DNA of 64,000 nt, taken from assembly GCA_946183925.1 (NCBI GenBank), contig CAMHDS010000001.1:1-64000 (forward strand). The letters run 5' to 3'. The notes beneath the pieces are model-generated. The model saw only the letters and a program-made list of their open reading frames with translations, did not search any database and had not been told where the DNA came from. Of this stretch, positions 24,591 to 26,950 are shown piece after piece. This stretch comes from an uncultured Fibrobacter sp. (GTDB lineage: Bacteria; Fibrobacterota; Fibrobacteria; Fibrobacterales; Fibrobacteraceae). How positions within the stretch are numbered: position 1 is the first letter of the stretch; each line of letters opens with the position of its first letter. A program made the translations under genes and the position numbers.

Positions 24591-25586
24591 TTAATACGTC
24601 CCAAGAAGACTCCTAACCTTCTCCATCATTGCCTTGGATTTAACGCGGGCCTTCTCCTTGCCGTACGCGAGAATCTTGTCGATTTCTTCGGTGTGGGAGA
24701 GCAGGTAGAAGTACTTTTCGCGGGCAGCGCCCAGGTGTTCCTCAAGAACATTCTGGAGTTCCTGCTTGGCGTGTCCCCAACCCATACCACCGGCACGGTA
24801 ACGGGCGGCGAGCGCCTCGGTCTGTTCCGGCGTGGCAAACAGCTTGTACAGCTTGAACACGTTGCAAGTGTCCGGGTCCTTCGGTTCTTCGATGCCCTGG
24901 GAGTTCGTGACAATCTTGCCAATTTTCTTCTTGAGGGCCTTGCTCTCGAGGAAGATGTCGATGACGTTGTCGTAGGACTTGCTCATCTTGCGGCCATCAA
25001 GACCCGGGATGATTCCCGTCGTCTCCTGGAACACGGGTTCCGGAATAGTGAACACGTCTTCGCCAAAATGCTTGTTGAACTTGATGGCGATATCGCGGGC
25101 AAATTCCACGTGCTGCTTCTGGTCCTTGCCCACGGGCACGATATCGGCGCTGAACATCAGGATGTCTGCATCCATCAGGCACGGGTAGCAATAGAGGCCC
25201 ATGTTCACGTTGGCATCCGGATCTTCACCAGCGGCGTTGTTCGCTTCGACCTTCGCCTTGTAAGCGTGAGCGCGGTTCATGAAGCCCTTCGGCGTAAAGC
25301 AGCTGAGCGCCCAACTGAGTTCAAAAATCTCGGGAATGTCGCTCTGCTTGTAGAACAGGCCTTCTTCGGGGTTCAGGCCAAGGGCAAGCCAGGTGGCGGC
25401 AATCTTGTAAATGTTCGCCCGCATCTCGGCACCGTTCTGCACGGTGGTAAGAGCATGGTAGTCGGCGATAAAATAGACCGTATCGTAGGTCTTGGAAAGT
25501 TCAAGAGCGGGGCGAATGGCGCCCAAGTAGTTGCCTAAGTGCGGCGTGCCAGTGGGCTTGATGCCCGTGAGAGAAATTTTTTTCAT
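24591..25586 (-). CDS. trpS: Tryptophanyl-tRNA synthetase
   Basis: 331 aa, the normal bacterial TrpRS size. This class I synthetase shows the HIGH-like motif in GIKPTGTPHLGNYLGAI and the KMSKS motif in LDGRKMSKSYDN. Tryptophan-pocket motifs include FIADYHALT and YCYPCLMDADILMF. It charges tRNA-Trp with ATP in the cytoplasm. The start is taken as ATG 25586 (MKKISLTG); the GTG two codons upstream gives the ORF-track start. There is no Shine-Dalgarno, but TATACT lies 12 nt before the ATG, suggesting a very short or absent leader. The MITE-like element lies 27 bp upstream of this start. Confidence 0.95.
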   Translation of the reverse strand: MKKISLTGIKPTGTPHLGNYLGAIRPALELSKTYDTVYFIADYHALTTVQNGAEMRANIYKIAATWLALGLNPEEGLFYKQSDIPEIFELSWALSCFTPKGFMNRAHAYKAKVEANNAAGEDPDANVNMGLYCYPCLMDADILMFSADIVPVGKDQKQHVEFARDIAIKFNKHFGEDVFTIPEPVFQETTGIIPGLDGRKMSKSYDNVIDIFLESKALKKKIGKIVTNSQGIEEPKDPDTCNVFKLYKLFATPEQTEALAARYRAGGMGWGHAKQELQNVLEEHLGAAREKYFYLLSHTEEIDKILAYGKEKARVKSKAMMEKVRSLLGTY

Positions 25587-25605
25587 GAGCACAAAGGTAG
25601 TATAT

Positions 25606-25781
25606 TTTTATTAGGCCACCTCTAAAAATTGCTTTGATAAAAAGAATTTGAGCGAAACCGAGCGCAGGCAGGAACGAAAAGTGGTGAATACTGGAGGTCT
25701 TTACCACTTTGAGTGACGAAACTGCGCGATGTGTTGCAGCCAAATTTTTGAAAATGAATTTTTAGAGGTGGTCTTTTATTA
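25606..25781. mobile_element. MITE-like element with 17-bp terminal inverted repeats and 8-bp target duplication
   Basis: The element spans about 25614-25773 (160 bp). The left end GGCCACCTCTAAAAATT and right end AATTTTTAGAGGTGGTC are inverted repeats with one mismatch in 17. Both sides are flanked by an identical TTTTATTA (25606-25613 and 25774-25781), the expected footprint of transposition with an 8-bp staggered cut. There is no ORF of a transposase inside, so it is non-autonomous. It fills the trpS-rnd intergenic gap and ends 15 bp before the rnd start, so the right-hand target duplication forms part of the rnd promoter region. Confidence 0.85.
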
Positions 25782-25786
25782 CATTT
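25780..25786 (+). promoter_or_regulatory. -10-like TACATTT box before rnd
   Basis: TACATTT ends 9 nt before ATG 25796 with no Shine-Dalgarno in between. It overlaps the 3' base pair of the right-hand target duplication of the MITE-like element. Same geometry as at 14558, 46755, 50784 and 53036. Confidence 0.45.
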
Positions 25787-25795
25787 CACCCTGCA

Positions 25796-26950
25796 ATGCT
25801 CCAAGACGAGAAATACATACTGGTAGATAGCGAAGAAAGCCTCGTAAGCCTGCTGGCCGACCTGGAACTTTACGATATGGCGGCGGTAGATACCGAAGCC
25901 GACTCCATGCACCATTACGAATCAAAACTCTGTCTGATACAGATTACCATCGGCGACCATCACTATATAGTGGACCCTCTCTGCGGGCTAGACATTTCCC
26001 GTCTTTTCAAGGCCAGGGCCATGCAGACCCTTATTTTTCACGGGGCGGACTACGACCTGCGGCTTTTGTGGCAGACCTTCGGTTTTTCTCCCAAGAAGAT
26101 TTTTGACACCATGCTGGCTTCCAAGTTCCTGGGCGAAGAACACCTGGGACTTGCCGACCTTGTCCGCAAGTATTTTGGCGACGAACTGAAAAAAGAGAAC
26201 CAGCGGGCGGACTGGTCCATACGGCCGCTCCCCCTGGAAATGTGCGAGTACGCCATCCACGACACCTTTTACCTGCACGAGCTGTGTGCCATCCTGGCCG
26301 GAAAGCTGCAAGAGACTGGACGCCTGCAATGGCTTATGGAGCAATGCGACGCTCTAATAGAACATTCCAAAGAACAAGGTCACCCTAAAAAGGACCCCTG
26401 GAGGATTCCCGGTTCCAATGTTTTCCCGCCCTTGGGACTGAATATTTTGAAGCATGTGTGGGAATGGCGCGAAAAACAGGCCGAAGCCATGGACCGTCCT
26501 CCATACAAGGTCATGCCCGCCGAACTCATGCTTTCCATTGTCCGGCACGTGATGCGGGATTACCCGGACCTGAAACAAGAAAGGCTCCCCAGACTTCCCC
26601 GGAATTTCAGGGAAGAACGGCTGGATTCCTTCATGGCCATGCTTCAGCAGGCGATTGACACTCCCGAAGGCGAATGGCCCGAAAAGCTCCCCAGGTCGGC
26701 TCCCCCTGCGGTCATTCCCCATTCGGAACTGCTGGCCGCCCTGAAGCTCTGGCGGGACGAAAAGGCCGAACAGCTAAACCTGGACACATGCCTGGTGGCC
26801 AACAAGAACCAGCTGGTGTGGCTTGCCGTTCCAGGAGACACTCCCTGGGAAGCCCGCTACGAAAACGCCCACCTGCTGGGCTGGCAAAAAAAAGTGTGGA
26901 ACCAGATTCTGCAGGAACACCTGGACAAGGCCGAAAGGATAGGAGAATAA
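25796..26950 (+). CDS. rnd: Ribonuclease D
   Basis: 384 aa, typical for RNase D. The DEDD-type 3'-5' exonuclease domain is visible: Exo I AAVDTEADSMHHYESKLCLIQI, Exo II FHGADYDLRLL and Exo III YAIHDTFYLHEL, which together supply the four catalytic acids. HRDC-type helical regions follow (about 210-380). It trims 3' ends of stable RNAs. It begins a compact cluster with the 5-FCL-like gene (3 bp gap) and the SpoU methyltransferase gene (1 bp gap), suggesting one RNA/housekeeping transcript. The start lacks a Shine-Dalgarno and is probably leaderless. Confidence 0.92.
   Translation: MLQDEKYILVDSEESLVSLLADLELYDMAAVDTEADSMHHYESKLCLIQITIGDHHYIVDPLCGLDISRLFKARAMQTLIFHGADYDLRLLWQTFGFSPKKIFDTMLASKFLGEEHLGLADLVRKYFGDELKKENQRADWSIRPLPLEMCEYAIHDTFYLHELCAILAGKLQETGRLQWLMEQCDALIEHSKEQGHPKKDPWRIPGSNVFPPLGLNILKHVWEWREKQAEAMDRPPYKVMPAELMLSIVRHVMRDYPDLKQERLPRLPRNFREERLDSFMAMLQQAIDTPEGEWPEKLPRSAPPAVIPHSELLAALKLWRDEKAEQLNLDTCLVANKNQLVWLAVPGDTPWEARYENAHLLGWQKKVWNQILQEHLDKAERIGE

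Follow-up and report, generated by a model that had tools for sequence, protein, structure and literature searches.

A hairpin-forming MITE family of Fibrobacter with IS5-type ends and its copy between trpS and rnd

The element between trpS and rnd

The window analyzed here is a stretch of 64,000 nucleotides from the genome of an uncultured Fibrobacter sp. (contig CAMHDS010000001.1). An element of 160 bp lies between the divergent genes trpS (ATG at 25586, minus strand) and rnd (ATG at 25796, plus strand), in agreement with the first-pass annotation of the site. The start of rnd is located 22 bp from the element and 14 bp beyond the second of the two copies of TTTTATTA which, as that annotation had stated, flank the element with eight identical bases on both sides. 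The coordinates of all features are given in Table 1.

Table 1. Features of the trpS-rnd region (positions in the window)
Feature	Position	Strand	Remarks
trpS, tryptophan--tRNA ligase	24591..25586	-	TIGR00233, 297 bits, cut-off 177
Putative trpS core promoter box TACCTTTG	25592..25599	-	outside element; recurs, slightly changed, in relatives; candidate role from Bacteroidota-type TAnnTTTG boxes
Left TTTTATTA	25606..25613	.	forms with the right copy an apparent 8-bp repeat, considered coincidental
MITE	25614..25773	+	160 bp; listed strand is the better-folding one as RNA
Left terminal inverted repeat GGCCACCTCTAAAAATT	25614..25630	+	ends shared with IS5-type IS
Right terminal inverted repeat GACCACCTCTAAAAATT (reverse complement)	25757..25773	-	
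Right TTTTATTA	25774..25781	.	reads TTTTGTTA in G015 and G007, both with this insertion
Putative rnd core promoter box TACATTTC	25780..25787	+	outside element; recurs in element-free relatives; candidate role
rnd, ribonuclease D (homologue)	25796..26950	+	below TIGR01388 equivalog cut-off

The element has the general features of a MITE: it is short and non-coding, with no transposase gene, and carries terminal inverted repeats of 17 bp each. The earlier descriptions as MITE-like and as having 17-bp ends that differ by one base both hold, with a single mismatch between GGCCACCTCTAAAAATT and GACCACCTCTAAAAATT and several copies in the genome. The end pattern, with up to three mismatches, was matched twice in the window (expectation 0.23), both times by the ends of this element. 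The listed strand is predicted to fold into a single end-to-end hairpin of -67.6 kcal/mol (z = -11), the opposite strand reaching -43.1. Comparison with the Rfam covariance models gave no match up to E = 1, and no match to the element was found in phage records.

Two conserved stretches border the insertion, both outside the element: TTACATTT adjoins rnd and is kept with small changes in relatives with an empty site, and CAAAGGTA precedes trpS and recurs with small changes in element-free relatives. Bacteroidota-type promoters carry TAnnTTTG boxes, and by analogy TTACATTT and CAAAGGTA are presumed to contain the core boxes of rnd and trpS. If so, the element would supply only the upstream halves of both promoters. 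Since TTACATTT is not part of the element and also occurs at empty sites, no more than the upstream portion of the rnd promoter was replaced; to this extent a rebuilding of the rnd promoter by the insertion, as proposed at first, is possible, and the element may affect the promoters or RNA of its neighbors. The TAnnTTTG-like boxes (window 25587-25599 and 25780-25795) end 5-8 bp before the start codons of trpS and rnd, positions which suggest nearly leaderless transcripts of both genes.

Copies, flanking duplications and partner insertion sequences

The element occurs at eight places in the host genome, which bears out the expectation of further copies; seven are complete (87-100% identity) and the eighth is a deleted copy of 95 bp. 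The other host copies share 87-95% identity with the copy at trpS-rnd. Of 80 congeneric genomes 37 contain matches, and a search of 168 genomes of the phylum added six from four further genera within the family of the host (approximately 70-78% identity over longer stretches), so that relatives of the element are present in 43/168 genomes. The copies are thus dispersed; their setting is intergenic, with all gene arrangements represented. For the Fibrobacter succinogenes major domain 44 matches were counted in the host genome, which makes a Fibrobacter-like host likely. A search of the open-access literature yielded no account of a MITE of this kind in Fibrobacter, and the family, which is real, old and of a known kind, is apparently undescribed.

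The length of the target duplication was examined by comparing the flanks of 71 distinct copies with 500 re-pairings of these flanks. Exact 4-bp duplications occur at 20 of the 71 copies (re-pairings: mean 2.8, maximum 9), and at 25 of 76 after addition of the other genera and strict de-duplication (shuffles: mean 3.3, maximum 11), TAAA and TTTA being the commonest targets among the 76 copies. The family therefore has a duplication of constant length, 4 bp, whereas 8 bp are duplicated at the window copy alone (1/76). Chance 8-bp matches expected over the 71 copies amount to about 0.06 exact and 0.39 with one mismatch; taken alone, a perfect 8-bp repeat is unlikely to arise by chance at one given site. 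The same insertion in G015 and G007 has a flank repeat of only 7/8. At the corresponding position of the right flank most relatives with an empty site read TTTGTTACATTTC and two read TTTATTACATTTC, so the matching A appears derived, and the base that completes the match is most simply explained by a G-to-A substitution that arose later, in the lineage of the host. We infer that the perfect repeat arose by chance; the 8-bp target duplication of the first-pass annotation is not sustained, as both the family and its partner insertion sequence (IS) make 4 bp and the sister species show 7/8. No 4-bp duplication is visible in the flanks of the trpS-rnd copy.

Partner elements were sought across the genus with the Pfam profile DDE_Tnp_1 (PF01609), which gave few hits. 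One IS in G044 (L147:1006-2260) is 1255 bp long, has the ends GGTAACCTCTAAAAATT and GGGAACCTCTAAAAATT and is flanked by TAAA on both sides. Its transposase (335 aa) is intact, contains the Pfam domains DDE_Tnp_1 and DUF772 and scores 293 bits with the NCBIfam IS5 model NF033581 (cut-off 140). The MITE and this IS5-family partner have the 17-bp end pattern GGNNACCTCTAAAAATT in common. G055, which is closely related to the host, has a broken copy of 900 bp whose ends match and which is flanked by ACAA on either side; a remnant in G026 retains one end beside a transposase fragment. IS relatives with both ends recognized show exact 4-bp duplications in 14/23 cases and duplications of 5-8 bp in 0/23. 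The partner family is accordingly IS5, duplicating 4 bp: the MITE carries the ends of an IS5-family IS and duplicates targets of equal length.

Five congeners (G067, G014, G071, G003 and G050) gave further PF01609 hits, which were dismissed as partners because they lack a pair of GGNNACCTCTAAAAATT-type ends. A transposase-bearing partner with the same ends does exist, in G044, but the prediction of an active one in this genome is unsupported, none having been detected in the host assembly (81% complete). Beyond the ends, the interior of the MITE has nothing visibly in common with the G044 IS, so that descent of the MITE from it would be conjectural.

Beside one MITE-type end in G026 (L153:1330-1761) an open frame combines the C-terminal portion of an IS5 transposase with a radical-SAM-like segment; it is probably a decayed fusion. 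A Clostridia assembly encodes a transposase with 100% identity to that of G044; such IS thus appear to travel between phyla, the G044 case being an apparent recent transfer.

Age of the insertion and conservation of the hairpin

Three species (the host, G015 and G007) carry the trpS-rnd insertion at the same place. Between them 2 to 4 of the 160 bases of the element have changed, and 5-8% of the four-fold sites of rnd. Copies at orthologous sites in other species correspond to five of the eight in the host (contigs C1, C29, C68, C4 and C59). The insertion looks ancient rather than recent, and the fairly recent movement once read from the well-preserved ends is contradicted by its presence in three species, by the divergence among the host copies and by their orthologous positions. 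Species with an occupied site are spread over the rnd tree, in which most inner forks are weak, and loss or recombination must consequently have acted. The comparison with empty sites in relatives, proposed as a check, yielded empty relatives but not an exact pre-insertion allele: the sampled empty alleles either contain some 12-20 bp near the insertion point that are absent from the occupied allele or have a wholly different spacer.

Pairing was examined in 14 representatives less than 88% identical and proved to be kept through many compensatory changes. Two-sided changes occur in 28 of 53 consensus pairs, with 77 two-sided-change cells vs 23 in shuffles and 51 unpaired cells vs 128 in shuffles, a control that leaves shared ancestry in. 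The listed strand folds better in 59/61 copies. A first count of G-U pairs as a sign of strand-specific RNA selection was rejected because the pairs had been chosen on the favored strand; with strand-neutral pair choice the excess of G-T over A-C is weak (6 vs 4 in the representatives), so that selection at the RNA level is no more than a possibility. The copies of G000 and G015 differ at two positions, 71 and 90; these differences were discarded as a compensatory pair, as they weaken pairing in the predicted fold.

Versions with the same ends range from 35 to 758 bp. The longest, non-coding and located in G028 (L087:501-1258; G028:C11:2342-3099), has z = -14.5 and contains the 160-bp core in pieces, in order, with hairpin inserts between them; longer versions in G026, G057 and G069 likewise have an insert after approximately core position 106. 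G024, with 75 matches to the end pattern, contains minimal palindromes of 35-37 bp with little beyond the two ends (L094:1188-1222, L101:423-458 and L089:550-586), some with 4-bp duplications. A tentative and rather doubtful proposal is that of a mobile hairpin family which keeps its end-to-end pairing by compensatory change across genera and grows by taking up entire hairpin modules at certain internal positions, the reason being that the folded strand either functions as RNA or is required for transposition. The kept hairpin and the modular growth form a natural series in which RNA function can be set against transposition needs and palindrome repair in long palindromic MITEs.

Origin of the element and comparison with known systems

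Very probably the element is a non-autonomous MITE that depends on an IS5-family transposase of the NF033581 type, and its insertion at trpS-rnd is old, with a coincidental 8-bp repeat around it. Such a transposase would recognize the GGNNACCTCTAAAAATT ends, mobilize the MITE in trans and duplicate 4 bp of AT-rich target. The family would have entered a Fibrobacter-like lineage at an early date and filled gaps between its genes, its copies now being inherited or exchanged together with their flanks; the copy at trpS-rnd would once have had a 4-bp duplication of its own that can no longer be seen. Recent movement of a MITE whose family duplicates 8 bp and whose active partner resides in the host genome would account for the perfect TTTTATTA on both sides and for ends only one base apart, yet it conflicts with the 4-bp signature of the family and of the same-ended IS, with 8 bp at a single site of 76, with the imperfect repeat in two sister species and with an insertion common to three species, and is very improbable. 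Still more remote, close to negligible, is a REPIN-like element, which a RAYT (Y1) transposase would move and leave no target duplication; short hairpins dispersed between genes would fit it, but the 4-bp duplications are clear and the ends are identical to those of an IS with a DDE transposase.

RNA roles have been claimed for the Correia/NEMIS and ERIC elements. By analogy the hairpin might be retained as RNA for the neighboring genes (stability, RNase processing or termination), mobility being merely its mode of spread. The two-sided changes in the diverged copies, the better fold of one strand in nearly all copies and the few changes of the element between species as against the four-fold sites of rnd speak for such a role; the presence of copies in all gene arrangements and the weak strand-neutral G-T excess speak against it, and the stem could also be kept by palindrome repair or by the needs of transposition. 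On balance this function appears unlikely; it is compatible with an IS5-type MITE, to which it would add a function. For the trpS-rnd site itself the lesson is that one perfect flanking repeat can mislead: comparison of many copies and of the partner IS led to another duplication length, another transposase family and another age.

Among known systems, the IS5 family (NCBIfam NF033581, transpos_IS5_4) resembles the MITE in the 17-bp end pattern and in the 4-bp AT-rich duplications; the window element differs in having no transposase, only the ends being common to it and the IS examined. RUP of Streptococcus pneumoniae is a non-coding element of about 100 bp whose ends and target match the IS630-Spn1 transposase (PMC2229807). 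Here as there, ends and target are common to a short element and an IS, whereas RUP goes with IS630 and a TA target and the present family with IS5 and 4-bp duplications. Correia/NEMIS and ERIC are dispersed, mainly intergenic, end-to-end stem-loops (PMC2229807, PMC10969869), and a Correia variant with an internal insert is described (PMC2229807). In architecture they match the MITE: their size is similar, they pair from end to end and they lie mostly between genes. The Fibrobacter family, for which processing of a transcript by RNase III or RNase E, as in a Correia/ERIC-like repeat, would be hypothetical, differs in its wider size range and its repeated hairpin inserts.
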